Source: an uncultured Bacilli bacterium
Lineage (GTDB): Bacteria; Bacillota_I; Bacilli_A; RFN20; CAG-449
Direction of reading: 5' to 3'
Assembly: GCA_944332525.1 (NCBI GenBank)
Contig: CALVKD010000047.1
Span: 1 to 35,331 of the forward strand
DNA: 35,331 nucleotides
The position numbers and the translations under genes are program-made. The notes beneath the pieces are model-generated. The model was not told the origin of the DNA. It saw only the letters and a program-made list of their open reading frames with translations, and ran no database searches. This document shows, piece after piece, positions 5,561 through 22,521 of the stretch (positions are counted from its first letter, which is position 1; the number at the start of each line of letters is the position of its first letter).

Positions 5561-5608
5561 TTGACATATAAAAACAAGAGGTCTACACTAGAAGAAATTT
5601 AAAGGGGG
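5561..5608 (+). promoter_or_regulatory. Promoter and G-rich ribosome-binding site of the first lipoprotein operon
   Basis: TTGACA (5561-5566), a 17-base spacer and TACACT (5584-5589) form a good sigma-A-type promoter. AAAGGGGG (5601-5608) follows as the ribosome-binding site. The rest of 5405-5560 is AT-rich and must also carry the divergent esterase promoter. Confidence 0.65.
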
Positions 5609-5619
5609 ACAAATTGAAT

Positions 5620-8355
5620 ATGAAAAAGACCAAAATTTCTTTGGCTATTTTAGCATTAGCTGCATCTACAATTCTTGCAGCCTGTGGCGGAACTACATCA
5701 AGTACAACGCCTACAACAAGTGCCGGTGGTGTTTCGACTGGAACATCAGAAACAACACCTACAACTTCTCACCCTGGTACATCAGTAACTCCAGGGACTT
5801 CTTCTACAACATCGGCGGTAGTCGTTGATCATGAAGAATTAAAAGTAACAAAGCCGACAAAATCGACATATGAATTAGGAGAACCTCTTGATTTAGATGG
5901 TCTTAAAGTTGAAAAAGTTAGCTATGATGCTGATGATGTTGAACTTGAACGTGTTACTTTATCCGAAGGAGAATATACGCTTTCTCACCCAGGTACAACA
6001 GTTGCCACTGGCTTAACTCTTGATTTTGCTGGTGAAATGCCAATTACTGTTAAGGCTGGTGAATTAACAACAAGTTTCACAATTACTATTAATCCATCGG
6101 TTACTGCAGCTTTAAGAATTACAAAGCCAACAAAGAGCGAATATGTCGTTGGTGATGAACTTGATTTAACTGGTCTTAAAGTTGAAAAAGTCACAACAAC
6201 TGATACAGGATCGTCAAAAGTTGAACCAACAGAAGAAGTCGTCGAACTTAAAGCAGGAGAATATACACTTTCACATCCTGGTACAACTATTGAAAACGGA
6301 TTAGTTCTCGACTTTGCCGGCGCAATGCCGATTACTGTTACTGCTGGTGATTTAAAAGTAAAATTCACAATTACTATTAATCCAAAAGTTACAGAAGAAT
6401 TAAAAGTAACTCCACCAACTAAGACTACTTACGTTCATGGCGAAGCACTTGACTTATCCGGATTAAAAGTTGAAAAAGTTACAACAACCGATAACGGTGG
6501 AAAGGCTGAACCAACTGTCGTGACAAAAGAATTAACCGAAGCTGAATATACTTTAACTCATGGTGGAACATTCACAGTTACTGATGGTGTTTTATTAGAA
6601 GAATCTGGATTAATGACTATTAAAGTCACAGCTGGCGATTTAACAGCCACATTCACTATCACAATTGATTCTGTTGTAACAAAAGCAATTGCGGTTACTA
6701 ACTTACCTACTAAAACTGAATACAAAGCTGGTGAAATATTTGAAACTTCTGGCTTAGTTGTTTCGTTAACTACGACAACCGATGGTGAAGCAGTAACAAC
6801 CGTCTTAGAAGAAGGAGACTATACCTTAACTATCGACGGCCAAGCTGCAGCAACCTATATCTTCCAACCAACTGAAGAAAATCAAGAATATACAGTAACT
6901 GTCACACCAAAAAATACAACTATCGCTCCAGTCACATTCAAAGTTACCGCTTCACCAGTTGAAGTTGCTAAATACGGCGTAACAATTGAAGGTTTAGGCG
7001 ATATGAAACTTGATTGGTGGTATGTCGGAGGAACTGAATGGGTTGTCGATAGGGGTGAACCAATTGAAGACATTACTACCGCTAAATTCAAAGAAGGTGA
7101 TGTAATTGGTTTCTCTATTGCAGCTGATTCCCCTTCATATGTCAAATATGAAGATATTGAATTAGAAGGTGCAACATTATTCAGAACAACTATTGGTGAT
7201 GACGAAAAAGAATCATTCTACTTCACAGTTAAGACTAGCGATGTTAAATTAATAGTCAACAATCTTCGTGGCGAAACCAAATATGCAGGAAAAGAATTTG
7301 TTGGAACATATACAGTTTATGATTTATCATCGGGAACAACAGCTCATACATTAGTTGTTGGAGCTGACGGCGAAGTAACATTAGATGATGGTACTAGTTA
7401 CGAATACACTTATGATGAAGCAACTGGCGACTTTGATATGGAATACAGTAGTGTATCGCTTGCATATAGCGCTGGAGCAGTTTTCTATAATAATAAATAT
7501 TTAGGATTTAAAGACGGCACCATCTCTAATTATTTATTTAATTCAAGTAATGACTATATCGCTGAATTCTCTGCTGATGGAGGAACAAAGTTAGTCTACA
7601 AATACTATTCAACTTTATTAGTTGAAGGCGCTGACTTTACAGCAGAATACGTTGGAGAAGATTTATCCGATTTCTCAGTTTTAACATTAACAGCAGATGC
7701 TAATGATGAAGGAGACTCATGCTTCTCAATCGCTATGGGATATAGTTCTGTTGATAGAACAGCTGTCGAGGGTAAACATCTTCTCTATATCGTTTCAAAT
7801 GGAAAAGGTGGATTCACAAGAGAAAAGAAAGATGGTACACAGGGAACATATACTGGTGCAGAAGGTGAACTCGTATTAGATGGTTTCAAAAATTACACAT
7901 TAAATGGTGTAAGCGGTACATGCACATATGATGAAAGTTTAGGAATTATCACTCTTGATACTGGAAAAACATATAAAATTGATACCGATGCAATGACATA
8001 TGAAGAATTTGAACTCGTTACCTCTGATCCTTGGGCAACATCAACTGCTGAATTTGTTTCAGAAGACGGCACTTTCACTTTTACATTTAGTAACGGAAAA
8101 GTTACATTTACAGATAGCAAACATTCTTGGGACGACGAGGGTACCGCTATTTCATATAAGGTTTCTAATGGAAAATTAACATTTGAAGCTACATATGATT
8201 ATTGGAATGAAGAATATGCTGAATTTGTATTATTCATCGATCCAAGTCTAGAAACAATCACTGTTTTTGAAGATGTAGTAGCTGAACCATTATATGGTTG
8301 GGGAGGCACAACAATTATGAAAGCAGGCACTGTCTTTACTTTAGTTACTGAATAA
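5620..8355 (+). CDS. Lipoprotein with four bacterial Ig-like (Big_3-like) repeats
   Basis: This is a surface-anchored lipoprotein of 911 residues. The signal peptide MKKTKISLAILALA ends in lipobox LAAC, giving lipidated Cys22, followed by a Thr/Ser/Gly/Pro linker of about 45 residues. Four tandem modules of about 90 residues then follow, each opening with [KPL]-P-T-K-[ST]-x-Y-x-x-G-E and L-D-L-x-G-L-K-V-E-K-V and closing with T-F-T-I-T-I, the Big_3 pattern. The remaining half is beta-rich with G-T-Y-T and L-D-x-G modules, possibly ligand binding. The ATG at 5620 is chosen for its normal signal peptide; an in-frame TTG at 5614, nearer the GGGGG, is possible. It is first of four genes, 17 bases before the next. 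Binding of host or dietary polymers is a guess. Confidence 0.88.
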   Translation: MKKTKISLAILALAASTILAACGGTTSSTTPTTSAGGVSTGTSETTPTTSHPGTSVTPGTSSTTSAVVVDHEELKVTKPTKSTYELGEPLDLDGLKVEKVSYDADDVELERVTLSEGEYTLSHPGTTVATGLTLDFAGEMPITVKAGELTTSFTITINPSVTAALRITKPTKSEYVVGDELDLTGLKVEKVTTTDTGSSKVEPTEEVVELKAGEYTLSHPGTTIENGLVLDFAGAMPITVTAGDLKVKFTITINPKVTEELKVTPPTKTTYVHGEALDLSGLKVEKVTTTDNGGKAEPTVVTKELTEAEYTLTHGGTFTVTDGVLLEESGLMTIKVTAGDLTATFTITIDSVVTKAIAVTNLPTKTEYKAGEIFETSGLVVSLTTTTDGEAVTTVLEEGDYTLTIDGQAAATYIFQPTEENQEYTVTVTPKNTTIAPVTFKVTASPVEVAKYGVTIEGLGDMKLDWWYVGGTEWVVDRGEPIEDITTAKFKEGDVIGFSIAADSPSYVKYEDIELEGATLFRTTIGDDEKESFYFTVKTSDVKLIVNNLRGETKYAGKEFVGTYTVYDLSSGTTAHTLVVGADGEVTLDDGTSYEYTYDEATGDFDMEYSSVSLAYSAGAVFYNNKYLGFKDGTISNYLFNSSNDYIAEFSADGGTKLVYKYYSTLLVEGADFTAEYVGEDLSDFSVLTLTADANDEGDSCFSIAMGYSSVDRTAVEGKHLLYIVSNGKGGFTREKKDGTQGTYTGAEGELVLDGFKNYTLNGVSGTCTYDESLGIITLDTGKTYKIDTDAMTYEEFELVTSDPWATSTAEFVSEDGTFTFTFSNGKVTFTDSKHSWDDEGTAISYKVSNGKLTFEATYDYWNEEYAEFVLFIDPSLETITVFEDVVAEPLYGWGGTTIMKAGTVFTLVTE
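5836..6957 (+). repeat. Four tandem Ig-like coding repeats
   Basis: Four units of about 255-275 bases encode consecutive Ig-like modules. Units 1 and 2 are closest: both encode G-E-Y-T-L-S-H-P-G-T-T and D-F-A-G-x-M-P-I-T-V, and share near-identical DNA such as GGTCTTAAAGTTGAAAAAGT. Unit 3 is more diverged and unit 4 most. The gradient fits stepwise tandem duplication. Confidence 0.8.
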
Positions 8356-8372
8356 CATAGAACGGAGCCATA

Positions 8373-9230
8373 ATGAAGAAACAATTATTATTCACTTTAT
8401 TAACCATGACTTTATTAACAGCTTGTGGGGGAACAACTTCATCAGTTGTTTCCTCTGCTCCTGTTAGCAGTCCATCATCTACGACAACTTCAGAAGTTTC
8501 ATCTTCAACTTCTGATAGTCCTTATTCTGATTTTGATTTATCGTTTAGAGGAATCACCATTGATAATGTTTATGAAGATTATTCATCAGCATCATTTGGT
8601 GGAATGCTTGAAGATATCGGTATTGGAGCTTGGATGGTTGTCGGTGATGAATACACAATTAATGTCGATATTAAAGATCTTTCAGATCAAACCATTTCTG
8701 TCGAGTTTGATGATCCGAGTATTTGCGAGTATCGTCTAGATAATATTGACGGACAAAAATCTCACAAATTAATTCCATTGAAAACTGGCGGAACTACAAT
8801 GCGTATCTACGACGCAAATCATGATTTAATCTACCGCAATGCGATTAACTGCCGCGTTGCTATTAGAGATATTGATACAATGTTTGAGGTTCTCTACCAA
8901 GCTGATTACTGGGCTGGAGCCTTCTCATCTGCTGCAGGAATTGGTTACTACCGCTTCTCTATGTCAGCCGATGAAAATCACAACATTGTCACAATATCCG
9001 GTCAAGATTCAGGAATTAGTTACGCACCAGCGCAATTTGAAGTTGATCTTGATAATTACGTCGAATCAGATGTCGAAACTTTCCATACTTACGACTTTAG
9101 TTGCACGATGATTACAACTGATACAAGCTTAAATATCACGCATTTTGCTGTATCTTTATCACTAGACACAATCTATGTTTCTGAAGATATCGGTATTCTC
9201 GATTTCTTTAGACCAGTCTATCTCGATTAA
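8373..9230 (+). CDS. Lipoprotein, second gene of the operon, unknown function
   Basis: This 285-residue protein has a signal peptide with lipobox L-T-A-C (Cys18), then a Ser/Thr/Pro/Val linker to about residue 48. The mature domain (50-285) is beta-rich and acidic with no recognised motif; it includes a segment with D-D-P-S-I-C-E and L-K-T-G-G-T-T-M-R-I-Y that resembles the strand pattern of a single Ig-like (BIG2-type) fold. GGAG lies five bases before the ATG. The gene starts 17 bases after the previous stop and ends 24 bases before the next start, so it is part of the operon. The function is not known. Confidence 0.82.
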   Translation: MKKQLLFTLLTMTLLTACGGTTSSVVSSAPVSSPSSTTTSEVSSSTSDSPYSDFDLSFRGITIDNVYEDYSSASFGGMLEDIGIGAWMVVGDEYTINVDIKDLSDQTISVEFDDPSICEYRLDNIDGQKSHKLIPLKTGGTTMRIYDANHDLIYRNAINCRVAIRDIDTMFEVLYQADYWAGAFSSAAGIGYYRFSMSADENHNIVTISGQDSGISYAPAQFEVDLDNYVESDVETFHTYDFSCTMITTDTSLNITHFAVSLSLDTIYVSEDIGILDFFRPVYLD

Positions 9231-9254
9231 TTAGAAAGGGGATTAAATCAGGAT

Positions 9255-11909
9255 ATGAAAAAAACTAAAATATTAACTTTGGTAGCTATGGCAGCATTAT
9301 TAGCTGCTTGCGGAGGAACATCTTCATCAGTTACCTCATCATCACAAGGAATTAGCACACCTTCTACTTCACAAACTCCATCAGTTTCATCTGAAACTAG
9401 TACTGCTACTAGTTCCCAAGGTGGTAGTTCTTCAACAACTAGCCAAACACCGGTTGAAGAAGAATACCGCGTCAATATCGGAGCTACTATGGGAGGTATT
9501 ACTGTAACCAGCGATAAAGAAAAAGCTAAAGCTGGGGAAGTCATTACCTTAACTGTTACTGTCACTAATAACAGTTATACAGTCACCGGTGTTTTCTATG
9601 ATGAATCTGCTTGTACAAAAACAAACGATACGACATATTGGTTCATTATGCCGGATCATCCAGTAACTGTTACAGTTAGAGCTAATGTCGAAGGCGATGT
9701 TACTTTACAAGGTGATATCACTGCAGCTTTTACTGAAGAAAACGGAATTTATGTAGCTAGAAACGTTAAAGTCGATGCTGATAGTGACTTCAATTTAGTC
9801 ATTAAAAGCGGTGATACTACCGAAGAACTCGATTCTTTCTCGCTTGATAGATACAAAACAACTGCTAATATTGAATACTCAAGACAAAATGAATATGCTT
9901 TTGAAATTAAAGGTGGCTGCACATATGATTTCTTCTACGATGTCAATAATGGCGCGCGTCCTTTCTATGTAAGAAGAACTGCTGTAAATTCTTTACCTTC
10001 CGGTGAGGATTCACTTTATAGCTTATTTACTGGATATATTCTTTCTGAATGCACAGTTAATCCTCAAGGTATCACAGCGATTAATTATACTAATGAGGCT
10101 GCTAATGAAACTTATCAATGGAAGTTATATAACAATAACACCTCATATGCTAAAGTAACTGAAAGTGATAGCACTGGTGCAGTTAAAACTAAGGCTGAAG
10201 TTTATACTAAGCTTGAAGATTCTACATTGACTATTGTTGATACTTATACCCCATCGACTGAAGACGCTTATGAATATGATTACTCTTGCTGGGGTGATTC
10301 AGAAAAATATGCCGGTCGTTATGTTATTAGTGATAACGATGAAGACGGTGATTTAACAAGCGATATTGAATTTGAACAATACTCAAATTACGTCAATTCA
10401 CACACAGCCGATTTTGTTCTTAAACAAGGTTATAACCATGGCATGGAATCAATTGAAACAGACTTTATGCATTCTTACCGCGTTGGAATGGTAGTTGAAG
10501 ATTATATTAAACAAGCTTCTGTCAACATTACCTCTGAAGATACTGCTGAAGGATTTACTACAAAAATTGTCTCTTCAAAAACTTATGATGATACCGGCTC
10601 TAATGGTGGAGTTGGAAAATACCATCTTGAATATCGGGCAACACTTAATTTCAAAGATGACGGAACATTATTATCTATCGATTATGAGTATAAAACCTTT
10701 GATGAATCAGTGTTCAATTTCACTAATTTTACTTGGCTCAGCGGTGATACAGCTAGTAACTATGCAAACAACGGCAAGTTAGTCAACCATGTCACTGCAA
10801 CTTACACTTATGGCACCGAATCAGCACCTGATTATACGTTTGATGTCACACCTTACTTTGTCTCCCAAATCAAAGATCTCAGCGTTAATAATCCAGATGC
10901 CGATATTGATGCAGCGAACAAATTAAATGTCGGTGATGCAGCTGAAGATTATGCCGCTTGCACTTATTTACCAGAAACTGCGCTCGATACTTGGCAATAT
11001 GAATTCCTCTCTTCTAGTAATGAAAATGTCATCGCTTATGATGATTCATATGTTGAATATGCTGCTATTGGAGATGGAACAACTACATTAACATTTGGTT
11101 CTGTTAATGGATTAGGAACCTCTGCTACAGTTGATGTCACAGTAGCATATACTTATAAATTAAGAAACATTTACCTTTATGAAGATTTCGGAAAATATGC
11201 ACCTATCACTAGTTCTTCATCCGCAGAGCTCAACGCAGGTACAGTTGCTGAATATGGTCTCCAAGCAAAAGAATCAGCACACAACACAGTTATCCCATTG
11301 CCAAGCGATGCCACAGCAGAAATTATCGATAAAAAAGGATTAGATATCGCTGTAACATTAAATAATGTCAACGGAACTTTGGTTGTCGATACCAGCAAAG
11401 CAGTTGTCACTTCATCAACGGATTTCGTTGTTAGAATCAATACTTCTTATTACGATTCCGAATGGGTTTCTAAACCAATAGAATTTACATTCACAATTTT
11501 ACCAAGCGTTAGCGCAGATAATATTGTTGGAACATATCTACCTAATGACTCTTCGTACGCTGGAGATTCAATTACCTTTACTAAAAATTCTACTTCATCA
11601 ATTCCAGGATATGAAGGAACATTACCTTATATTGGAACAATGACCGCAGACAAGGCTTCTTATAGTTTTGCATGGGGAATTAATGAATTAAGTGAAATTG
11701 AAACAGAATTCCTAAGTGGCGCGTTACCTGAAGGCGCGATGGTCGATTTAGATCTCGTCTATCATTCAGACACAGAGTCACTTGATGTCATCTTCTCTTA
11801 CTCCGTCATTGGTGATACCACTGGTGGAGATTATGGTACTACCTACGAAGTTATCGGATATTACGATGAAGAAAGCTTCCCTGTTTACGTTACTTTCAAC
11901 AAGCAATAG
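9255..11909 (+). CDS. Large lipoprotein with InlB-B-repeat-like domain
   Basis: This 884-residue lipoprotein has the lipobox L-A-A-C (Cys19) and a Ser/Thr/Gln linker of about 45 residues. Residues 71-145 resemble a divergent InlB B-repeat (Flg_new_2-like) module: K-A-G-E-V-I-T-L-T-V early and the hallmark F-I-M-P-D-H-P-V-T-V-T-V at the end. The remaining roughly 740 residues are beta-rich, Tyr/Asp/Thr-rich and unrecognised, ending in a G-T-Y-L-P-N module akin to the C-terminal modules of the 5620 and 18498 genes. AAAGGGG lies 13 bases before the ATG and AGGA immediately before it. An adhesive or ligand-binding surface role is likely but unproven. Confidence 0.85.
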   Translation: MKKTKILTLVAMAALLAACGGTSSSVTSSSQGISTPSTSQTPSVSSETSTATSSQGGSSSTTSQTPVEEEYRVNIGATMGGITVTSDKEKAKAGEVITLTVTVTNNSYTVTGVFYDESACTKTNDTTYWFIMPDHPVTVTVRANVEGDVTLQGDITAAFTEENGIYVARNVKVDADSDFNLVIKSGDTTEELDSFSLDRYKTTANIEYSRQNEYAFEIKGGCTYDFFYDVNNGARPFYVRRTAVNSLPSGEDSLYSLFTGYILSECTVNPQGITAINYTNEAANETYQWKLYNNNTSYAKVTESDSTGAVKTKAEVYTKLEDSTLTIVDTYTPSTEDAYEYDYSCWGDSEKYAGRYVISDNDEDGDLTSDIEFEQYSNYVNSHTADFVLKQGYNHGMESIETDFMHSYRVGMVVEDYIKQASVNITSEDTAEGFTTKIVSSKTYDDTGSNGGVGKYHLEYRATLNFKDDGTLLSIDYEYKTFDESVFNFTNFTWLSGDTASNYANNGKLVNHVTATYTYGTESAPDYTFDVTPYFVSQIKDLSVNNPDADIDAANKLNVGDAAEDYAACTYLPETALDTWQYEFLSSSNENVIAYDDSYVEYAAIGDGTTTLTFGSVNGLGTSATVDVTVAYTYKLRNIYLYEDFGKYAPITSSSSAELNAGTVAEYGLQAKESAHNTVIPLPSDATAEIIDKKGLDIAVTLNNVNGTLVVDTSKAVVTSSTDFVVRINTSYYDSEWVSKPIEFTFTILPSVSADNIVGTYLPNDSSYAGDSITFTKNSTSSIPGYEGTLPYIGTMTADKASYSFAWGINELSEIETEFLSGALPEGAMVDLDLVYHSDTESLDVIFSYSVIGDTTGGDYGTTYEVIGYYDEESFPVYVTFNKQ

Positions 11910-11918
11910 GAGATTCCA

Positions 11919-13304
11919 ATGAGAAAAAAATTAATCTTATCATTACTTGTCTTATCATCAATTGGTTTAACCGCATGTAATCAAGGTACGACAAGTCTCA
12001 TATCAAGTGTTGAAAGTTCGTCTTCGCAAACAAGCATAGTATCAAGTGATAATGTCTCAACAGTTGGCGAAGCTTTACAAGCTTTAAAAAACATTGACTT
12101 TGAACTGGTGACTATTTCAACTAATGAGGGGAAAATTTTCGATACTGTTTTTACTCAAGATTTCACTTATGATGCATTAAGTAGTCAAGGTTATTTAGTC
12201 AAAGATGGAAAAGTTTATCCATATATTGATGACAATCAAACAATTCGAACTGGTTTAGAAACAACTTTCACTTCTCTCTATGGTCAAGGTGGAGCAGTGA
12301 GCAATTTTGATCTCAATTTATCATTGCTAGACTATAGCACTGATGAGGTAACTTCCTTAAAACGCGATTTTGTTGTACCTATTATCAAAATGATGGGTAT
12401 AGGGGAACAATATTACACAACCGTGCTCTCATGCCGCCTCTATCTAGATGGAAATAAAGCAACTGATTTAGGAATTGAAGTAAATGTCGATGGTTCAATC
12501 TACCGCGGTTTAATTCTTGATTATGAAGGAGAATTTGACTACGTTGATGAATTCATCAAAAATGATGCTTTATCCACAATCGACCCATTATTGCTGCATG
12601 TAAAGGAATTATTCAATCAAGATAATTATACTCTTTGCTTATATGATGATGCTTCAACACCAGATACTCCGACATCATATTCATATTTCACTGATGATTA
12701 CTATATTCAAATCTTTACAAATGCTTATATCGCTCTTAATCCATTAGCTCAATCACAGCAATATGGTTATATGGAAATTCTTAATCCAAATACTCCGATT
12801 ACCATAAGCGGTCAAGATTTAATCTTTGATGATATTTATATGTTCACTTATAGCGGAAGTTATGAAACAGAAGGAAGTTTGGGAATTTACACCCGTGAAA
12901 ATCCTTCTAAGCCTGGCTATGCTCAAGGTGCTTTCACTTATCGGTGCACGGATATTTCACAGGTTATGAATTATCCGCGTTACTCATCGCTTTTCTCGTA
13001 TCTCCAAGTTTTTGAAGAAACCGAAAGCGAAATAGAAGGCGCAAGAACTTTCTCAACAACTTATCAACCAGTTATCGCTGATATTTTAGATAATTATGGC
13101 TTAACCGGTGGATTTGATAACTATGGAGGAATTGAAACATTACAGATTATTGATATCCCAGAAAGCAACCGGGCTAATGAACGCGTTATCTTCCGTTTAT
13201 TAACTCCCGGTGGAACTGGTTACTATGATCTTGATCACACCAATTTCGGAAGTACAGCATTTGCTCCATTTGAAGATTTAAGACAATCGCTTAATCTCGA
13301 TTAA
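11919..13304 (+). CDS. Lipoprotein, last gene of the first lipoprotein operon
   Basis: This 461-residue lipoprotein has the signal peptide MRKKLILSLLVLSSIGLTAC with lipidated Cys20, followed by a shorter Ser-rich linker (about 22-47). The mature region looks like a mixed alpha/beta domain with many Tyr, Asp and Gly residues; no motif is recognised. It sits nine bases after the preceding stop with AGGAG just before the ATG, so it is translated from the same message, and the operon terminates 7 bases downstream of its stop. No enzymatic signature is visible. Confidence 0.82.
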   Translation: MRKKLILSLLVLSSIGLTACNQGTTSLISSVESSSSQTSIVSSDNVSTVGEALQALKNIDFELVTISTNEGKIFDTVFTQDFTYDALSSQGYLVKDGKVYPYIDDNQTIRTGLETTFTSLYGQGGAVSNFDLNLSLLDYSTDEVTSLKRDFVVPIIKMMGIGEQYYTTVLSCRLYLDGNKATDLGIEVNVDGSIYRGLILDYEGEFDYVDEFIKNDALSTIDPLLLHVKELFNQDNYTLCLYDDASTPDTPTSYSYFTDDYYIQIFTNAYIALNPLAQSQQYGYMEILNPNTPITISGQDLIFDDIYMFTYSGSYETEGSLGIYTRENPSKPGYAQGAFTYRCTDISQVMNYPRYSSLFSYLQVFEETESEIEGARTFSTTYQPVIADILDNYGLTGGFDNYGGIETLQIIDIPESNRANERVIFRLLTPGGTGYYDLDHTNFGSTAFAPFEDLRQSLNLD

Positions 13305-13310
13305 AACAAA

Positions 13311-13342
13311 AAGGACTGTTCTCAAGAACAATCCTTTTTATT
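13311..13342. terminator. Bidirectional intrinsic terminator between lipoprotein operon and mgtA
   Basis: AAGGACTGTTCT pairs with AGAACAATCCTT around a four-base loop (one mismatch), followed by TTTTTATTTT on the plus strand. Read on the minus strand the same hairpin is followed by TTTTTGTTTT. It therefore can end both converging transcripts. Confidence 0.85.
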
Positions 13343-13348
13343 TTGCTT

Positions 13349-16126
13349 TTATAAAAGTCTGCCGTAATGCTTCTTATAGAGATACTTTGCAATCGTAGTT
13401 AATATTGAATAAATTAAAACAAATATAATCATAAACAATATAAATAACGGATTTATCGGTGAAAAATCAAAGATGGTATTAATGTTTGGAACATAAATAA
13501 CAAAGAAACCTAATAAACAAGAAACAATAATTCCAAGTGATAAAGTAATAGATGGGAATGATTGAATTAAAGGCAATTTTTCGGTTCTTAAGAAAGCATA
13601 GACAACGTTTTGAGTTAATAAAGATTCTAAGAAAAATCCAGATTGGAAAATCGTCATGAATAAAATGAATTCTGGACTATTGCTTTCCCACAGTTGATTA
13701 AATTGACTGCCGACTGCCATTGGGCAAATATAGTACATCAATAAAGCAAATGTTAACATATCGACAAGAGAAGATATTGGGCCAAAGGTAAACATAAAGT
13801 TTCTAATTTGCCGAGATGAGAAATTTAATGGCTTAAGAATTTGTGATTCATCAACTTTGTCAAAAGGAATAACTCCGCATGAGATATCAGTAATAATGTC
13901 GAGCAAGATTAAGTGTAAAGCTCTCATCGGCATAAAAGGAATCCATAAAGCTCCAATCGATTGCGAAATCATGTTACCGAAGTTTGAGGAAGTTTGACCC
14001 TTGAGGTATTTCATCATATTGACATAGGATTTTCTGCCTTCGATAATCCCGTCTTTTAAAACATCTAAATTATTTTCCATCATAACGATATCCGCGGCTT
14101 CTTTAGCAATATCCGTTGCATCTTTAAAAGAAATACCGACATCAGCCAAACGAAGGGATGGAGCATCGTTGATTCCATCACCCATGAAACCAACGGTATG
14201 CTTAAATTTATTTTCTTTTAAAGCTTTGACAATACGATATTTATCATCTGGGCTAAGCTTATAGAAAATATTATATTCTTCGACTTTATTTTGTAATTCA
14301 TTATCATCCATTGCAGCAATTTCTTCGCCGGAAAGATATTTAACATTAGTAAAGCCGGTTTTTTTGGTAACTTCTAAAGTGGTTTGTAAATTATCTCCGG
14401 TTAATACCTTAATCTCCACACCATAATGACGCAAAGAATTTAAAGCTGATTCAGCATTGCTTTTGACTTTATCTTCAAATGATAAAAATCCTAAAAATAT
14501 CATATCTTTTTCATCTGAAATATCAACTGTAGCCTTTTCATCCATTTCGCGAATAGCTAATAAGATAACTCTTCTTCCGCGTCTTTCTTCTTGATTGACT
14601 TTAAGAAGAATTTTTTCTTTAATCTCATCTGTAAGCGCGATAGCTTCTGTATTATTTCTTAGTTTTACTTTAGAAATGGTCTCAAGCATTTCTTTACAGG
14701 CACCTTTAGTGATTAAGTACTTTTTCTTATCAGTTACATTTTCTAAAAACACCGATAGTCTCTTGCGATGGAAATCAAAAGGTAATTCATCAATTTTCTG
14801 ATAATCAGAAGAAATATCTAAAATATGCGAAGCGTTCAATGAAGAAAAATAAATAATTGATTTATCGATAACTGAACGAATTCCGCTTTGGAAATACGAA
14901 TTTAAGTATGCGTATTGCAAAACGTAATCGTCGTCATTGTCATCATCTAAATTAAAGTAATCACATAAAGTTGAACTCGCCTCAGTCAGAGTGCCGGTTT
15001 TATCTGTGCATAATACATCCATCGCTCCAAAGTTTTGGATAGTATTAATATCTTTTACAATAACCTTCTTCTCTGACATTTTTAAAGCGCCTTTAGCTAA
15101 ATTAGAAGCCACTTGCATCGGTAATAAGCTCGGCATAATACCAACAGCGACAGTAATAGCAAAGACAAAAGCTTCAATCCATTGATGATAATCGTTATAT
15201 CCGCTAATAGTAATACCTGATGGCGAGATATTTATTCCTATTCCGTCTACTAAGAAAACAATCGGCAGCATGATGACTAAAAAAGTAATTAAAAGCTTAG
15301 AGACACTATCAATTCCCTTTTCAAAAGCTGTTTTACCTTTTTTCTCAACTACTTTTTTAGCTAATTGTCCAAAAACTGTTTTATCGCCAACAGCAATAAT
15401 TATTCCTTTTCCTTGCCCAGAAACAATATTTGAACCAGAGAACAATAAGCACTGCGCATCAAAAATAGATGATATATTACTTTCTAATGGCAAATCATTC
15501 TTTTCAACCGCTTCTGATTCTCCAGTCAAACTCGCCTGAGAAACAAATAAATCTTTTGATTCGATAACTCTAATATCAGCAGGGACCATATCTCCGGCTG
15601 ATAACATAACAATATCACCTACAACTAATTCACTATTTGGAACTTCGACTTTTGCATTATCACGAATAATAGTTGATGTATTTTCTGATAAAGATTTCAG
15701 TGCCTGTGTACTTCTAAGAGACTTATTTTTTTGAACAAAGCCAACTAACCCTGACATCAAAATAATGATGATCAAAATAAGCGGCGTAATCCACCAAGTC
15801 ATTTTCTCTTCTTCTGAAGATGGAGCTAGATAAGAAACAAGTCCTGAAACTACAGCGACAAAGAGCATTATAAAAATAAATGGCGAACTAAAAGATTCTA
15901 ATAATCTAATGATTACAGTTTCGTCTTTAGCTTTCGATAAGATATTTTTTCCATACTTTTCTTCGCTAGCATTTCTTTCTTCTAATGAAAGACCCTTATT
16001 AGCATCAGAAGAAAGACTTCGGAGGCACTGATCTTTCGTTAACTTCGCATTTTCAAATAATTCTTTTGAAACATCATTTTTATTGATTAACTCAGTTTTA
16101 TTAATTTTATTCTTTTTTAAAATCAT
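13349..16126 (-). CDS. mgtA: Magnesium-importing P-type ATPase (MgtA/MgtB type, P3B)
   Basis: This 925-residue membrane pump uses ATP to import Mg2+. Visible motifs are TGES of the actuator domain (201-204), the phosphorylation site D375-K-T-G-T, TGDN (576-579) and G-D-G-I-N-D-A-P (649-656). The M4 segment reads M-P-S-L-L-P-M, the P3B counterpart of the MgtA P-E-M-L-P-M stretch, followed by L-A-K-G-A. Helices at about 80-100 and 112-130, the M3-M4 pair and six C-terminal helices give the usual topology and full length. AGGAGG sits eight bases before the ATG. The leader is short (under about 100 bases), with no obvious Mg2+-sensing structure. It is monocistronic and converges with the lipoprotein operon. 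Confidence 0.93.
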   Translation of the reverse strand: MILKKNKINKTELINKNDVSKELFENAKLTKDQCLRSLSSDANKGLSLEERNASEEKYGKNILSKAKDETVIIRLLESFSSPFIFIMLFVAVVSGLVSYLAPSSEEEKMTWWITPLILIIIILMSGLVGFVQKNKSLRSTQALKSLSENTSTIIRDNAKVEVPNSELVVGDIVMLSAGDMVPADIRVIESKDLFVSQASLTGESEAVEKNDLPLESNISSIFDAQCLLFSGSNIVSGQGKGIIIAVGDKTVFGQLAKKVVEKKGKTAFEKGIDSVSKLLITFLVIMLPIVFLVDGIGINISPSGITISGYNDYHQWIEAFVFAITVAVGIMPSLLPMQVASNLAKGALKMSEKKVIVKDINTIQNFGAMDVLCTDKTGTLTEASSTLCDYFNLDDDNDDDYVLQYAYLNSYFQSGIRSVIDKSIIYFSSLNASHILDISSDYQKIDELPFDFHRKRLSVFLENVTDKKKYLITKGACKEMLETISKVKLRNNTEAIALTDEIKEKILLKVNQEERRGRRVILLAIREMDEKATVDISDEKDMIFLGFLSFEDKVKSNAESALNSLRHYGVEIKVLTGDNLQTTLEVTKKTGFTNVKYLSGEEIAAMDDNELQNKVEEYNIFYKLSPDDKYRIVKALKENKFKHTVGFMGDGINDAPSLRLADVGISFKDATDIAKEAADIVMMENNLDVLKDGIIEGRKSYVNMMKYLKGQTSSNFGNMISQSIGALWIPFMPMRALHLILLDIITDISCGVIPFDKVDESQILKPLNFSSRQIRNFMFTFGPISSLVDMLTFALLMYYICPMAVGSQFNQLWESNSPEFILFMTIFQSGFFLESLLTQNVVYAFLRTEKLPLIQSFPSITLSLGIIVSCLLGFFVIYVPNINTIFDFSPINPLFILFMIIFVLIYSILTTIAKYLYKKHYGRLL

Positions 16127-16227
16127 TTCAATGTCCTCCTTTTCCCTGCCTTCTAATCTACTCTATGCCTTAGAAAAGTAGAACATTTTTTTACTATTTT
16201 CGATATTTTAATTACTTCAAATCACAT

Positions 16228-17142
16228 TTATCGATTTTCTATATTATTTTTGCGATTGAATAATGGTTTATCGCTGCTAGTTAGTATTGCTCCAATAATC
16301 ATTATTGCTAAAGCTATAACATATTGAAATGTCGGTATTTGTAAAAACAAAATCAAAGAAAATATTGAAGCGACGAACGGATTTATCGCATAATAAGCAC
16401 TTGTGCGAGCGGCTCCAATATATCTCTGAGCATAAATATAAAAAAGAATTGATAATCCATAAGCAACTATTCCGATTCCAATTGCAGCAAATATTGTCCA
16501 ACTATAAGTAATTGTTTCTCCAATAGCAAATCCTATAATCAACGACCCTGTTCCAGAAAATATTCCTTAATTAAGACAATAACTATAGGGTCAGAATTAG
16601 AAATCTTTTTGGTGCAATTATTTTCTATTCCCCAGCAAACGGCAGCTAATAAAACAAATAATGAGCCAAACGAAAAATTTAAAGATTCATCGTTTTCAAA
16701 AGACAAAATTAAACAAGAAATAGTAATAGTTATTATGCCGAGAATAACCCGTAAAGACATTTTTTCTTTAAATATGACAAAGGCAATTATCGCTGTCATT
16801 ACAATCTCAAAATTATTTAATAATGATACATTTGCCGCTGAAGAATATTTTAAACCGTACATCAAAAGTATAGGGGCAGCAATATCAAGAATAACCATTA
16901 AGAAAAAAAATATATATAATCTTTACGTTGAAATTTTGAATTATCAGAAGGTATTTTAAATATTTTTTTAACAGAAAAATTATTATCATACAAACACCTG
17001 CTCCTAAATAAAGAAACCCTGCCATTAAAGTCGGAGCGATATACTTTAACAATACTTTTGATAAAGGTGATGACAGAGAATAACTTAAAGCTGCAAAAAT
17101 TGCTAATGATATTCCTTTTTTATTAGATTTTTTATCTTCCAT
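16228..17142 (-). pseudogene. EamA/DMT-family permease gene with three frameshifts
   Basis: Three overlapping pieces on the minus strand add up to one ten-helix drug/metabolite transporter of about 305 residues. The N-terminal part contains L-S-S-P-L-S-K-V-L-L-K-Y-I-A-P-T. The middle part contains L-D-I-A-A-P-I-L-L-M-Y-G-L and L-L-N-N-F-E-I-V. The C-terminal part contains I-I-G-F-A-I-G-E and the second EamA repeat. Continuity is restored by adding one base at each of three homopolymers: the T7 at 16963-16969, the A8 at 16903-16910 and the CC at 16565-16566 (plus-strand letters). The first and last pieces share a frame, as three single-base losses predict. This is either a decaying gene or clustered sequencing error. 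The family exports or imports small metabolites. Confidence 0.85.
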
Positions 17143-17262
17143 AATTTTATTTTATTATTTATTTGAATATTAAATTGAAATTCTTATTATTTTTCTAACA
17201 ATTTATATTTTCGTCTGAAATAAAAATAATTATTAACAAATTTGAAAGTCTATGTATTTAAC

Positions 17263-17291
17263 TTTACATATTATTTCTTAAGTTGTAATAT
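17263..17291 (+). promoter_or_regulatory. Candidate promoter of the second lipoprotein operon
   Basis: TTTACA (17263-17268), 17 bases, TAATAT (17286-17291) would start transcription about 20 bases before the gene. An alternative is TTGAAA (17242-17247) with TACATA (17265-17270). Both are imperfect. Confidence 0.35.
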
Positions 17292-17319
17292 AAGAAATAA
17301 GTTTAAAGGGGAAATTTGT

Positions 17320-18480
17320 ATGAAAAAAAGAATAATGTTTTTTGCATTAGTTTTTTTGCTATTATCGAGTTGTAATAGCAACATAACTTCCGATGTCAGT
17401 TCGATTATCGATAAACCTCCAATTACAACAAGCGACGTCACATCTATCTCAAATAGTTTATTAGATAGCAGTGTCGAAAGCAGTGTTGAAACAAACGATT
17501 GGAACACTGAAATAAAAAATGTATTTAAAACTGTATTGGAAGATGAAAGTTTAGTTCCATACATTAAAGCAGATTACTATACATTTGATGTAAAACAGGA
17601 TCAAGGAATAGATTTTGTAGATATCTTACTAAGTGGTATTCATACCGAAACTATTATAGAAGATTATACAGAAATCTTAGAAAGCAATGGTTATTATGTA
17701 AGTCAGCCTTCTTTGGATTATTTAGCATCAAAAGAAGTTGATGTGGAAGATAATTGCTATATCCAGTTCAATTTAATAGAACAAAACGGAACCAGTAGCG
17801 GTAATTTTCTTCATCTAATGGCCTATCGAGTCCAAGAAAGAACGACAATATGGCCAGACGATTTATTATATACAATGTATTTTGAAACATTGCCGAAATT
17901 TCCAGCAAAATCCTATGAAATGTCTTACTATTTTGATTCTACAAATGTGACTTATGTCCTAACTTGTTATGCATATTATACAGAAGAAAATGGATATGAA
18001 TTATACAAGGATTCATTAACAAATTCTGGATTCGATATTTTAGATAGTGGTGACTATTATAAAGCGACAAGCGAAACATCAAATTTAGATGTTATGGTTT
18101 ATGATTATGATAGTTTAAATAACTTAGTCTATCTAAAAGTAACCTGCAACAGATTACATTTTCCTGGCTTCATGTTCAAATTATTAATTGAAGAGGAAAT
18201 ACCTACCATTGAAGTAAGTGGATGCGAATATGATTATTTCTTCTTTGATAATAATGAAGGGCTATTAAATGACTATACACTAGAACCATACGTTCCTGTT
18301 CTTTATATCTATAATGTAGGAAGCGAATACTATCTAGATTATTTAAATCGCTTGATAGAAAACGGCTGGAAGGAAGATACAGATGGAACTTACAAAAAGA
18401 CTATAAATGATAAAGAACATACGTTATTTCTAGTATATAGCGAGACATATGAATCAATGGCTATTTTTGTCATTAAATAA
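17320..18480 (+). CDS. Lipoprotein, first gene of the second lipoprotein operon
   Basis: This 386-residue lipoprotein has the signal peptide MKKRIMFFALVFLLLSSC with lipidated Cys18, then a Ser/Thr/Asp linker to about residue 55. The mature part appears to contain about four copies of a loosely repeated unit in which a Tyr-rich beta segment precedes a short helix with L-x-x-x-G-[FWY] (for example L-E-S-N-G-Y-Y-V, L-T-N-S-G-F-D-I and L-I-E-N-G-W-K-E). I do not recognise the fold. The ATG at 17320 is chosen because AAAGGGG lies eight bases upstream; a further upstream in-frame start would add 26 unrelated residues. The next gene starts 17 bases after its stop. Confidence 0.82.
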   Translation: MKKRIMFFALVFLLLSSCNSNITSDVSSIIDKPPITTSDVTSISNSLLDSSVESSVETNDWNTEIKNVFKTVLEDESLVPYIKADYYTFDVKQDQGIDFVDILLSGIHTETIIEDYTEILESNGYYVSQPSLDYLASKEVDVEDNCYIQFNLIEQNGTSSGNFLHLMAYRVQERTTIWPDDLLYTMYFETLPKFPAKSYEMSYYFDSTNVTYVLTCYAYYTEENGYELYKDSLTNSGFDILDSGDYYKATSETSNLDVMVYDYDSLNNLVYLKVTCNRLHFPGFMFKLLIEEEIPTIEVSGCEYDYFFFDNNEGLLNDYTLEPYVPVLYIYNVGSEYYLDYLNRLIENGWKEDTDGTYKKTINDKEHTLFLVYSETYESMAIFVIK

Positions 18481-18484
18481 AAAA

Positions 18485-18491
18485 GGGGGGG
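18485..18491 (+). promoter_or_regulatory. Seven-G tract acting as ribosome-binding site
   Basis: A run of seven G bases follows AAAAA and lies six bases before the ATG of the 1061-residue lipoprotein. It is the only purine-rich Shine-Dalgarno candidate there. A G7 run is conspicuous in such AT-rich DNA and could vary in length by slippage. Confidence 0.6.
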
Positions 18492-18497
18492 AATTTT

Positions 18498-21400
18498 ATG
18501 AACAAAAAATTTATATCAGCTATGAGCTTAATGGCAGTATTAACACTTGCTGCCTGTGGTGGAACGTCATCATTAGTGCCGTCTACGGCAAGTGTCACTC
18601 CTAGCAGCAATCCTGTTACAGGAAGCACTTCAGGAAGCAGCGCAGTTCCATCAACAACTTCTTCAACACCTTCATCAAGTGTTAGCTCAGCAACTAGCGT
18701 TGAAACTTTTGATCCTTTTGCATTTTTTGATGCAGCATTGGTAAAGGATTATTCAAATTCAACTGTTGAAAGCGTTCAACAATATAATGATGGTGAAAAT
18801 GTCGAAACCGATTTTGAATATTGCAGCGAAGGATATTATGTAGATTATAATCCAGATCTCGCCGGTATGGGCATGGATCCATATATCTATTATTTCGTCG
18901 AAGATGGTGTTTCATATCAATATTTTGAAAAGGATAACTATAATCCAAACTCTAAATCCGGTTGGTTAAATAAAGGTGCGAATAATATTGATTTATCAAT
19001 TTGGAATACCTATTTCTATCTTCCGATGCTCTTAGAGAATATTACCAGTGATGATGTTGAATTTTACGGGGATTTAGGTACATCTTACGCATATTTTGTT
19101 AATCCTGCAGTTGTCGAAGAATTAAATGAAACAGCCTTTAGATACGCTTGGTTTAATGAAATATTAGATGTGACTATTTATGTTGGCAAAGATGGTTATA
19201 TTAATCATATTCAAGGTTTCTCAGATGAAGATCCAATGATTACAAATAACTATGTCGATATCAAAATTACGAATATTGGCACGACCACTCTTCCTGATGG
19301 TGTTCCTAGTAAACCAACAGAAGAAACAAAACTTGAATATTGGGAATATAAAGGTTGGGAAAGCGATTATACCGATGCCTATTTAACAAGTATCACTGCA
19401 ACATTAGAGGAAGGTGTCGAATCTAGCGATCCTTATGATGTCGTTCTTGATATTGAACATAAGGCTACTATTTCATATGTTACTCTTCCTGATAGTTTTG
19501 AACCATGGGAAATGGTAGATGATACAGTCACTCTTCATTCAACTGATCCTGATGTCGCAACACTTACTTATGGAAATAATAACACTGCAGTCATCACAGC
19601 GATTAAAGAAGGTGAAACTGAAGTATATTTAAGTGTTAATGGTGAAAACGGTGTAATTGAATCAGAGCACTTTAAAGTAAAAGTTAACGGCTTAAAAGAA
19701 CAAGATAAAACAGAAGCAGTGTACGATTTTGATTTCATTTCAATGGATGAAGAAGAAAATATTTCTGCTATCAATAAAGTATCTGATGTAAAAGCCCCAT
19801 TTACTATTAAGAGTAATAAAGGCAAATTCCTCGATGGAAAATATAGTGAAATCTTTGATGCAGGAAAAGAGATTTTCACTCTTGATCCGTTAAGCACAGA
19901 TTTCTCAAAACCAGCAGGAGCCAGTGTCAGCTTTGATTTTGGCGAACAACAAGTTTCAAGTTTATCAGTGTACTATGGCTTAATCTATGATTCACATAAA
20001 GCTAATTTATCATATCTTGATGAAGCGGTTATTAAAACATCTAACGACGGTGTTGATTGGAAAGAAATTGATATTTTACAAACTTTAAAAGATGAAGCAT
20101 CTGGTAATAATAAGAAATTATTAGATGTTGCCTTTGATCCAGCAAGTAAAGTTGAAATCTATTTACATTCAAATATTGTCGGCAATTCTTTAGCTTTAGG
20201 ATTGGATGGATTTGTTTTCGGTGCAGATGAAAGATGCCATGATTATGTTGCACCTGAAGATGTACATGTCGAATCCGTAACCGTCGCTCCAGAATCATTA
20301 GATTTAACAATTGGTGATGTCTCTCCTCTTGTCGCTAATGTTTTACCGTCTAATGCATATACAAAAGACGTTAAATGGACTAGTAATAATCCAAGCATTG
20401 CAAGTGTTGATGCTGACGGCAAAGTCACAGCTGTAGCAGCAGGAACTACCACAGTATTTGCTACCAGTGTTGACGGAGATATCAAATCAAACGAAGTAAC
20501 AATTACTGTCAAAGAGCCAGTAACTATCCCAGAAAACATTGATGGAACATTCAAAAATGATTTAGATTTCCCTGAATTAACAGTTACTGTCAATAAGGAA
20601 GATAATAGTTTAGATGTTATTTTCAAAGACTATACTACTACCTTAAATCTTGTAGGATTAGATGGTGACTTTTACGAATTTAGAAATGATGGCGGAGATG
20701 TTTTATATTTATCATTAAGAAATGAGACAAAATTAAGCGTTGATACTACAAATTCTCGAATTGACGGAGAAAAGCTCGTCCCAGTTCATCAAGAATTATT
20801 TAAAGTTATTCCTGCTACCTCATTTGATGTTGTTGTCAGTGATGTTGAGATGGGTGAAGATGGCAAATACCATATTATTGAAAATGACTCAGCTATCGTA
20901 ACTGCTAAAAACTTCATTCCAGAAGATGCTAATGTCAAAGATGTAAAGTGGACTATCTCAAATGATAACGGTGTCTACGATGAAGAAATGGCGACATTTA
21001 AAGCTGTAAAAGAAGGCGAAGTCACCTTGACCGCTACCTGCTTACACGATGAAACTGTAACAAGCAGCGTCACATTTGTTATCGAAAAAGAAGTTAAGCC
21101 AACCTCAATTGAAGTAACTTCTAAAACAGGCGCTTATGAAGTAAATAAAGGCGATAGATTAGAATTAGAAGTAAGTTATAATGAAGGATGCAACAGAACT
21201 GGTGTTACCTGGAGTGTTGATAATAGAAATATTGCGACAATTGATGAAGATGGTGTGTTAACCGGAAAAGCAGCCGGTACAGTAACAGTAACTGCTACTT
21301 CAACCTATGATGATAGCGTAGTCGGTACAGTCGAAGTAACTGTTCTAGGCACTACTACTGAAGGAGCTATTCCAGCATCTTTAATTGGTAAATGGACAGC

Positions 21401-21683
21401 ATCAGATGATGATTTTTATGGAGTCATAAATTTCGAATTCACAATAAATGAAGATAAAACTTTGCATGGTATGGAAGATTTATACGGCATTGAATATTAC
21501 GCTACATTAAATGAAGAATTATCAACCGATGGAGTTCTCCATTATGATTTAGATGATGGATCTGGCGACTATATTGAAATTTTCTATGATGACTCAGGAA
21601 TAACTTCAGTCGCAGTTGATGATACAAATAGTTGCTTAATATCTGGTACACTTATTACATTTAGCACAGTCACTGCTTGGTAA
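18498..21683 (+). CDS. Very large lipoprotein with several Ig-like (BIG2) domains and a lectin-like module
   Basis: This 1061-residue surface lipoprotein has lipobox L-A-A-C (Cys20) and a Ser/Thr/Pro linker to about residue 68. After a unique domain (70-260), residues 295-397 look like a diverged Ig-like unit. Residues 470-576 resemble a discoidin (F5/8C)-type carbohydrate-binding fold (I-K-T-S-N-D-G-V-D-W-K-E-I). Residues 590-672 form a clear BIG2 domain (L-T-I-G-D, V-K-W-T-S-N-N-P-S-I-A-S-V-D, G-K-V-T-A-V-A-A-G-T), 775-862 a degenerate one and 868-950 another clear BIG2. The end (955-1061) opens with L-I-G-K-W-T-A-S, a module seen in other lipoproteins here. It ends the operon. Glycan binding or adhesion is the likely role. 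Confidence 0.88.
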   Translation: MNKKFISAMSLMAVLTLAACGGTSSLVPSTASVTPSSNPVTGSTSGSSAVPSTTSSTPSSSVSSATSVETFDPFAFFDAALVKDYSNSTVESVQQYNDGENVETDFEYCSEGYYVDYNPDLAGMGMDPYIYYFVEDGVSYQYFEKDNYNPNSKSGWLNKGANNIDLSIWNTYFYLPMLLENITSDDVEFYGDLGTSYAYFVNPAVVEELNETAFRYAWFNEILDVTIYVGKDGYINHIQGFSDEDPMITNNYVDIKITNIGTTTLPDGVPSKPTEETKLEYWEYKGWESDYTDAYLTSITATLEEGVESSDPYDVVLDIEHKATISYVTLPDSFEPWEMVDDTVTLHSTDPDVATLTYGNNNTAVITAIKEGETEVYLSVNGENGVIESEHFKVKVNGLKEQDKTEAVYDFDFISMDEEENISAINKVSDVKAPFTIKSNKGKFLDGKYSEIFDAGKEIFTLDPLSTDFSKPAGASVSFDFGEQQVSSLSVYYGLIYDSHKANLSYLDEAVIKTSNDGVDWKEIDILQTLKDEASGNNKKLLDVAFDPASKVEIYLHSNIVGNSLALGLDGFVFGADERCHDYVAPEDVHVESVTVAPESLDLTIGDVSPLVANVLPSNAYTKDVKWTSNNPSIASVDADGKVTAVAAGTTTVFATSVDGDIKSNEVTITVKEPVTIPENIDGTFKNDLDFPELTVTVNKEDNSLDVIFKDYTTTLNLVGLDGDFYEFRNDGGDVLYLSLRNETKLSVDTTNSRIDGEKLVPVHQELFKVIPATSFDVVVSDVEMGEDGKYHIIENDSAIVTAKNFIPEDANVKDVKWTISNDNGVYDEEMATFKAVKEGEVTLTATCLHDETVTSSVTFVIEKEVKPTSIEVTSKTGAYEVNKGDRLELEVSYNEGCNRTGVTWSVDNRNIATIDEDGVLTGKAAGTVTVTATSTYDDSVVGTVEVTVLGTTTEGAIPASLIGKWTASDDDFYGVINFEFTINEDKTLHGMEDLYGIEYYATLNEELSTDGVLHYDLDDGSGDYIEIFYDDSGITSVAVDDTNSCLISGTLITFSTVTAW

Positions 21684-21715
21684 TAAAAATCTTTGATAGA
21701 AAACCGAAATTTAGA

Positions 21716-21746
21716 AGGACTTGTTCTAATAGCAAGTCCTTTTAAA
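21716..21746 (+). terminator. Terminator of the second lipoprotein operon
   Basis: AAGGACTTG pairs perfectly with CAAGTCCTT around a nine-base loop (TTCTAATAG), followed by TTAAATT. The ascending arm (AAGGACTTGTTCT) closely matches the terminator at 13311 (AAGGACTGTTCT). Confidence 0.8.
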
Positions 21747-21781
21747 TTGCAAATAATTATTTCTTACTTACATATCCATTC

Positions 21782-21827
21782 AAAAAACCAGCGAACTATA
21801 GCATTTTTCATGCTTTAATCGCTGGTT
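21782..21827 (-). terminator. Terminator of the isochorismatase-like gene
   Basis: On the minus strand AACCAGCGA pairs with TCGCTGGTT (nine bp). An inner hairpin AGCAT/ATGCT occupies the loop, and the stem is followed by TTTTTTG. It lies 40 bases past the stop at 21867. Confidence 0.78.
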
Positions 21828-21866
21828 ACAATTATTTTGAATTTAATTACTTAGCTATAAAATATA

Positions 21867-22421
21867 TTACTCATTAAAGAATTCAATTAATTCATCAGAT
21901 GTCATAATCTTTGCACCATAAACTTCTTTAAGATACTTAATTCCGATATCATAATCTTCTTTAGTGAAAGAATCAGTGCAGTCGCTAGCAACGATAACTT
22001 CATATCCGAGCTGATAAGCATCGGCACTTGTATGACGAACGCACATATGTGTATGCAAGCCAGTCATAATGACGCTGTCGACATCAAGTTCTTTAAGTAA
22101 TAACTCTAAATCAGTATGGAAGAAACCACTATAACGTCTCTTTTTGACTACATAATCTTTTTCACATAACCCTAGTTCTGGAATGACTTCAGCACCTTTT
22201 GTTCCGTCAATAGCGTGATCACCCCATAACTTTAATTCGTGATCGATACCTTTTAAATGGGCATCATTTGAAAAGATGACCGGAATATTATTTTTTCTCG
22301 CTGCCTCTAATAATTTTCTAGTCGGTTCAATTGTGGCTTTAGCTCTATCACAGGCTAAAGCTCCTGTTACAAAGTCGTTGAGCATATCAACAACAATAAT
22401 AGCCACATGTTTTTTATCCAT
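21867..22421 (-). CDS. Isochorismatase-family cysteine hydrolase, nicotinamidase-like
   Basis: This 184-residue cytoplasmic hydrolase shows the isochorismatase/nicotinamidase fold: V-V-D-M-L-N-D-F with catalytic Asp12, K-K-R-R-Y-S-G-F supplying the catalytic Lys (93 or 94), and T-G-L-H-T-H-M-C with nucleophile Cys127 after the usual small-residue turn. A metal site like that of PncA is plausible from Asp53, His55 and His69. That favours an amidase such as nicotinamidase (nicotinamide to nicotinate for NAD salvage) over isochorismatase, but relatives of unknown substrate are common. AGAGGA lies seven bases before the ATG. It appears monocistronic, with its own terminator. Confidence 0.9.
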   Translation of the reverse strand: MDKKHVAIIVVDMLNDFVTGALACDRAKATIEPTRKLLEAARKNNIPVIFSNDAHLKGIDHELKLWGDHAIDGTKGAEVIPELGLCEKDYVVKKRRYSGFFHTDLELLLKELDVDSVIMTGLHTHMCVRHTSADAYQLGYEVIVASDCTDSFTKEDYDIGIKYLKEVYGAKIMTSDELIEFFNE

Positions 22422-22521
22422 TTCTTTTTCCTCTCATTATCAATATCATACAATTTCTTTTTTATTTAATGAATAAATTAAAATTAATACGCATTTCTGA
22501 TTATTATTCAAAAAATTAAGA

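Follow-up and report, generated by a model that had tools for sequence, protein, structure and literature searches.

Lipoprotein genes of the window

The stretch of DNA considered here (the window; 35,331 nucleotides) is contig C47 of a genome of 1.7 Mb, assembled in 98 contigs and 98.95% complete, from an uncultured bacterium of the Bacilli. Seven predicted lipoproteins, designated A to G, are encoded on it: A to D in operon 1 (5620-13304), E and F in operon 2 (17320-21683), and G on the minus strand (32979-33950). An earlier note made from the sequence alone had described six lipoproteins in two operons and a seventh at 32979, each with a signal peptide, a lipobox, and a Ser/Thr-rich linker, and this description is borne out. 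The N-terminal signal with a lipobox cysteine at residue 18-24 is present in 7/7 proteins, and Ser and Thr account for 15-30 of the 50 residues following this cysteine, a content of at least 15 being reached by 0.8% of random 50-mers from the same genome. The two operons harbor two independent cassettes, B-C-D and E-F(-E′), whose conservation spans families of a single bacterial order; each is centered on one large modular protein, C or F. The N-terminus of F is predicted to adopt a LolA/LprG-like fold.

The note had further seen all six operon-encoded proteins as built to one plan. The linker and the shared modules are real, but the linker proves to be a genome-wide feature, and the six proteins are not all mutually homologous. 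A 309-kb sample of this genome served as the lipoprotein background; in it, 13/19 candidate lipoproteins carry a Ser/Thr linker of this kind and tandem lipoprotein genes are found elsewhere; the common signal, lipobox, and linker therefore reflect a general style and constitute no evidence of a special tie between operons 1 and 2. A single homologous ectodomain common to A-F was rejected, since profile comparisons connect named modules only, and G is related to A-F by signal and linker alone. A further run of five lipoprotein genes resides in the same genome (L231:11550-20000 on G000:C48), one of them with D-type domains and one with Big_2.

Domain structure of operon 2

F (18498-21683, plus strand; 1061 residues) was modeled with AlphaFold at a pLDDT of 82.8 and a pTM of 0.44, the latter leaving the placement of its domains relative to one another uncertain. 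Behind the linker follows domain 1 (residues 70-275; 18705-19322), which aligns in VIA-align with LprG structure 3mha at Z 10.5 and an rmsd of 5.5 over 169/195 residues, and with the LprG entries 3mh8 and 3mh9 at Z 10.1 and 9.9, respectively. In the three LprG entries, F residues 68-268 are aligned over 169-180 residues, the model having a pLDDT mostly of 85-95 in this region, and the Z values of 9.9-10.5 exceed the level of 8 at which the structure-search tool warns. The predicted model displays the highly curved beta sheet and the helical lid of the LolA fold, and the order of strands and helices fits. Because F thus opens with a predicted LolA/LprG-like domain, and the LolA superfamily is united by the binding of hydrophobic ligands (PMC6363788), lipids are indicated as much as glycans.

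Domain 3 (residues 402-586; 19701-20255) is an F5/8 type C (discoidin)-like jelly roll. PF00754 is recognized in 18/31 homologs of this region (best E 8.8e-6), the copy in the window scoring E 0.064, below the Pfam cut-off; the domain profile also matches a beta-galactosidase chain of Bifidobacterium bifidum (7nit, E 1.8e-4), and the predicted fold resembles CBM29-2, MAM, and reelin at Z 8.4-9.4. Profile and jelly-roll fold thus agree in placing the domain among the discoidins. It is followed by a Big_2 domain (residues 591-672; 20268-20513) with a Pfam E of 1.7e-27, 95.6 bits against a cut-off of 22.8, and a structural match to 7r3t (Z 15.8, rmsd 1.0). Two small modules opening with G-[TK]-[YW], at 20514-20807 and 21354-21680, match each other at 96% (E 5e-9) and flank two further Ig/Big_2 domains (residues 770-952; 20805-21353), assigned by structure matches of residues 770-953 to LigA (8gyr, Z 12.4) and of residues 866-954 to 5ngj (Z 14.0). 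The last module is related to DUF5640, which is found in three of its homologs at E 4.9e-6 to 1.5e-3, under the curated cut-off, and gives no match in the window copy. E (17320-18480, plus strand) is built of internal repeats, about three in number and each some 110 residues long (hhalign self-comparison, 99.2%). Its likely true start is the ATG at 17320, preceded by a GGGG ribosome site, and a promoter-like site, TTTACA-17-TAATAT, lies at 17263-17291 on the plus strand as a consensus match only.

Domain structure of operon 1

All four genes of operon 1 are on the plus strand. A promoter-like site, TTGACA-17-TACACT (5561-5589), is likewise a consensus match only, four such sites having been found versus 2.5 expected; the likely true start of A is the ATG at 5620, again with a GGGG ribosome site. 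A (5620-8355) carries four Big_3 domains at about 5848-6950 (PF07523, E 2.7e-17; 63.2 bits against a Pfam cut-off of 21.2) and C-terminal G-T-Y modules, its C-terminus matching the last G-[TK]-[YW] module of F at 75% in profile comparison. B (8373-9230; family A9) is partly Ig-like and weakly matches each Ig domain of F, at about 50%.

The large modular lipoprotein C (9255-11909; AlphaFold pLDDT 83.7) consists of an InlB-like domain (9444-9704), a central domain (about 9987-10832), a Big_2-like domain (10842-11150), a cadherin/S-layer-like Ig domain (11151-11507), and a C-terminal module (11508-11906) that is only weakly related to the G-[TK]-[YW] modules of F (49%, profile comparison). Flg_new_2, the InlB B-repeat family, matches 18/30 homologs of C, and InlB-like and Big_2 families are the only ones that Pfam reports among these homologs. 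Residues 245-526 of the AlphaFold model align with LprG at Z 6.4 and an rmsd of 7.5, on which a LolA-like domain in C may tentatively be proposed. D (11919-13304) has arisen, by its sequence, from an internal duplication: its two domain copies (12054-12602 and 12594-13301) match each other at 94.5% (hhalign, E 7e-8). Copy 2 appears weakly related to the LolA-like domain of F (58-63% in profile comparison, versus at most 2.2% for other families and D copy 1). The folds named in the earlier note, Big_3 in A, InlB-like in C, and Big_2 and discoidin in F, are therefore all found, as are the G-[TK]-[YW] modules in A, C, and F.

Several searches returned nothing. Profiles of C, D, E, and the N-domain of F gave no usable match to the sequences in the PDB, Pfam yielded single matches at chance level among D and E homologs, and no family of solute-binding proteins of ABC importers was matched in Pfam or NCBIfam scans, structures having been modeled for C and F. 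Simple terminator scans found none, although hairpins with runs of T can be seen on inspection behind both D and F.

This domain content is what the earlier note had taken to suggest adhesion or glycan capture. According to this explanation, the Ig stalks and the InlB-like and discoidin domains would have as their targets other cells or the glycans of mucin, plants, or bacteria, and F would carry its LolA-like domain as a structural or protein-binding head. It explains most of the domains equally well: Big_2, Big_3, InlB-like, and F5/8 type C domains are commonly met in surface binding proteins, a galactosidase domain of B. bifidum responds to the discoidin profile, the fold of F domain 3 resembles CBM29-2, and the arrays of Ig domains are similar to those of LigA, intimin, and S-layer proteins. 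However, an Ig-like domain is a generic spacer, conservation beside the cassettes does not extend to any genes for glycan processing, and the lipid-carrier fold at the start of F is left unexplained. Although rather less likely than not, adhesion or glycan capture stands as a close rival to the lipid reading set out below.

Conservation of two independent cassettes

Conservation was assessed in 279 genomes of the order. C is present in 48 and D in 46 of them, and both co-occur in 43 (7.9 expected); the corresponding numbers are 39 for F, 29 for E, and 27 for both (4.1 expected). Since these counts ignore the kinship of the genomes, the hypergeometric co-occurrence values are not true probabilities, and physical linkage provides clearer evidence. 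B is found directly upstream of C in 30/31 testable loci, with gaps of -7 to 46 bases, E upstream of F in 32/40 loci, and an E-like gene (E′) downstream of F in 20/33 loci, all three linkage counts being slightly inflated by loci entered twice with different starts. D lies within 6 kb of C in 44/53 loci, its side and strand varying. Homologs of A are confined to this genus (G001 and G002) and G021, and the order of operon 1 is the same in these three genomes.

A recurrence of the gene order in relatives, which the earlier note had proposed as a check, is thus observed for both cassettes. They do not form a single system: one linked system was rejected, since this window is the only place where C and F are no more than 60 kb apart. 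The trees of C and of the first domain of F disagree with family lines, which makes transfer or old duplication likely. F and E were not found in G001 or G002. The region from about 17170 to 26145 is strain-variable: besides operon 2 it encodes an isochorismatase-like protein and a pair of ABC proteins of the MacB/FtsX type, and it is replaced by other DNA in the sister genome G001.

Neighboring genes

The earlier note had stated that a catalytic partner, a SusCD-like transporter, and a sortase are all missing. No SusC-like gene was detected among the window proteins scanned. No enzyme resides within operons 1 and 2 either, but the absence of a catalytic partner is no longer clear, because at least eight relatives (L054, L173, L178, L179, L181, L182, L186, and L190) have, next to the C cassette, lipoproteins resembling HExxHxxG-type metallopeptidases, and a lipoprotein of this kind has seven matches elsewhere in this genome. 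Since the HExxH lipoproteins give no Pfam match at E 0.01, their putative peptidase activity is a guess based on the motif. In five relatives (L041, L045, L047, L048, and L191), E-F-E′ is convergent to a MoxR-DUF58-BatA/B (VWA) operon, with a small lipoprotein in between. Upstream of operon 2, a transporter-like gene on the minus strand (16228-17142) is split over three frames, owing to decay of the gene or a sequencing error; in the relative G001 (L035), the same gene is an intact frame of 285 residues.

These neighborhoods bear on a role in envelope quality control or signaling, in which the LolA-like domains would act in the manner of RseB or LolA on mislocalized lipids or lipoprotein tails, with the Ig domains as scaffolds. 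LolA and RseB do have the same fold (PMC6363788), operon 2 adjoins the MacB/FtsX-type pair in this genome, and E-F-E′ adjoins the MoxR-DUF58-BatA/B operon in the five relatives. Yet a shuttle of the LolA type, which connects two membranes, is superfluous in a cell that has only one. Conservation of the cassette does not include the adjoining ABC pair, and a sigma/anti-sigma pair was not seen in the vicinity, so that such a role appears improbable.

Cell wall and fatty acid synthesis of the host

The genome has no match to the penicillin-binding transpeptidase family PF00905, which is matched in 10/14 control genomes, nor to the sortase family PF04203 (3/14 controls), so the absence of a sortase extends from the window to the whole genome. 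Ketoacyl synthase (PF00109), matched in 14/14 controls, is also absent; across the order, 262/279 genomes are without a match, and several of the 17 matching genomes contribute short partial matches. Five proteins of the DegV/FakB type are encoded. In Staphylococcus aureus, FakB holds the fatty acid that is phosphorylated by FakA (PMC9136124). Given the missing transpeptidase, sortase, and ketoacyl synthase and the five DegV/FakB-type proteins, the cell is probably wall-less, in line with the wall-less or thin-walled bacterium of the earlier note, and is likely a fatty-acid auxotroph, ketoacyl synthase being the sole step of synthesis that was searched.

The probable lack of a wall invites a structural explanation, namely that a surface layer made of the large Ig-rich lipoproteins takes the place of the wall as a protein coat or envelope scaffold. 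The best Foldseek matches of the C and F models include the S-layer proteins Sap, EA1, SbsB, and SbsC, a wall is probably lacking, and no sortase is present. However, the S-layer matches depend on generic Ig arrays, as do the remaining fold matches of C and F (S-layer proteins, cadherins, LigA, and intimin), and the cassettes are lacking in the majority of the genomes of the order, among them close relatives in the case of E-F. A coat of this kind is therefore very improbable.

A possible route for lipid capture

The reading favored here, as a tentative one that falls somewhat short of an even chance, is that the cassettes capture lipids or glycolipids at the cell surface or hand them over, the Ig domains being stalks and the discoidin domain serving for docking. 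Beyond the domain assignments, we infer the following steps. A wall-less cell of the Bacilli would be covered on its outside by two independent lipoprotein cassettes, C acting with B and D, and F with E and often E′. From the membrane outwards, F would present its lipid anchor, the flexible Ser/Thr linker, the LolA/LprG-like clam domain, the Ig-like stalk, the discoidin-like docking domain, and the small beta modules. The discoidin and Ig parts may attach the cell to membranes, to vesicles, or to glycans resembling mucin, and the LolA-like domains of F, and probably of D, would accept a hydrophobic ligand, for instance a fatty acid, a glycolipid, or a lysolipid. The ligand would then be passed to the membrane and on to the intracellular DegV/FakB proteins.

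Several observations weigh against lipid capture. No Pfam lipid-carrier family (LolA or LppX/LprG) is matched among 31 homologs of the F domain at E values up to 5, the LprG-like match of C is weak and receives no support from profile comparison, and B, E, and most of A are without an assigned fold. No transporter is conserved adjoining F or C in the neighborhoods read. DegV proteins occur widely, and their part in fatty acid handling here is putative. Moreover, the cassettes cannot be the only lipid route, because the loss of fatty acid synthesis is order-wide and the cassettes are patchy (C in 48/279 and F in 39/279 genomes).

The order, which from its wall and sortase profile and from the literature is probably RFN20, is largely uncultured, seemingly unable to make fatty acids, and apparently wall-less in many families. 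Should F or D indeed bind lipids, they would be the first named candidates for lipid acquisition in these bacteria and would offer a practical hint for culturing them.

Comparison with known systems

The nearest structural counterpart of F domain 1 is LprG of Mycobacterium tuberculosis, likewise a lipoprotein anchored in the membrane, to whose fold the predicted model of F corresponds at Z 10.5 over 169 residues. LprG is a single small domain whose working partner is the MFS protein Rv1410, in an envelope of two membranes (PMC10576003). In contrast, F is a multidomain protein of 1061 residues in a wall-less monoderm, with no MFS partner conserved nearby and no Pfam-level match. A possible working analogue is P116 of mycoplasma, a surface protein by which a wall-less bacterium takes up external lipids (PMC10023570). 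P116 differs by a fold of its own that encloses a very large cavity, and it is not among the fold matches listed for C and F; lipid uptake by F is itself postulated. The wider proposal that LolA-fold heads, Ig stalks, and discoidin docking together constitute lipid-scavenging systems of wall-less auxotrophs, a convergent counterpart of P116 across the order, is rather unlikely.

With F5/8 type C carbohydrate- and membrane-binding domains F shares the profile (18/31 homologs) and the jelly roll, and it differs from them in its setting as a lipoprotein headed by a LolA-like domain. Known surface proteins with Big_2, Big_3, and InlB repeats have their counterparts in the Big_3 domains of A, the Big_2 of F, and the InlB B-repeats of C homologs; A, C, and F are, however, lipid-anchored rather than sortase- or wall-anchored and are part of fixed multi-gene cassettes. 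A limited search of the literature did not find a description of these cassettes. The single folds are known, and what is new is their combination and setting.

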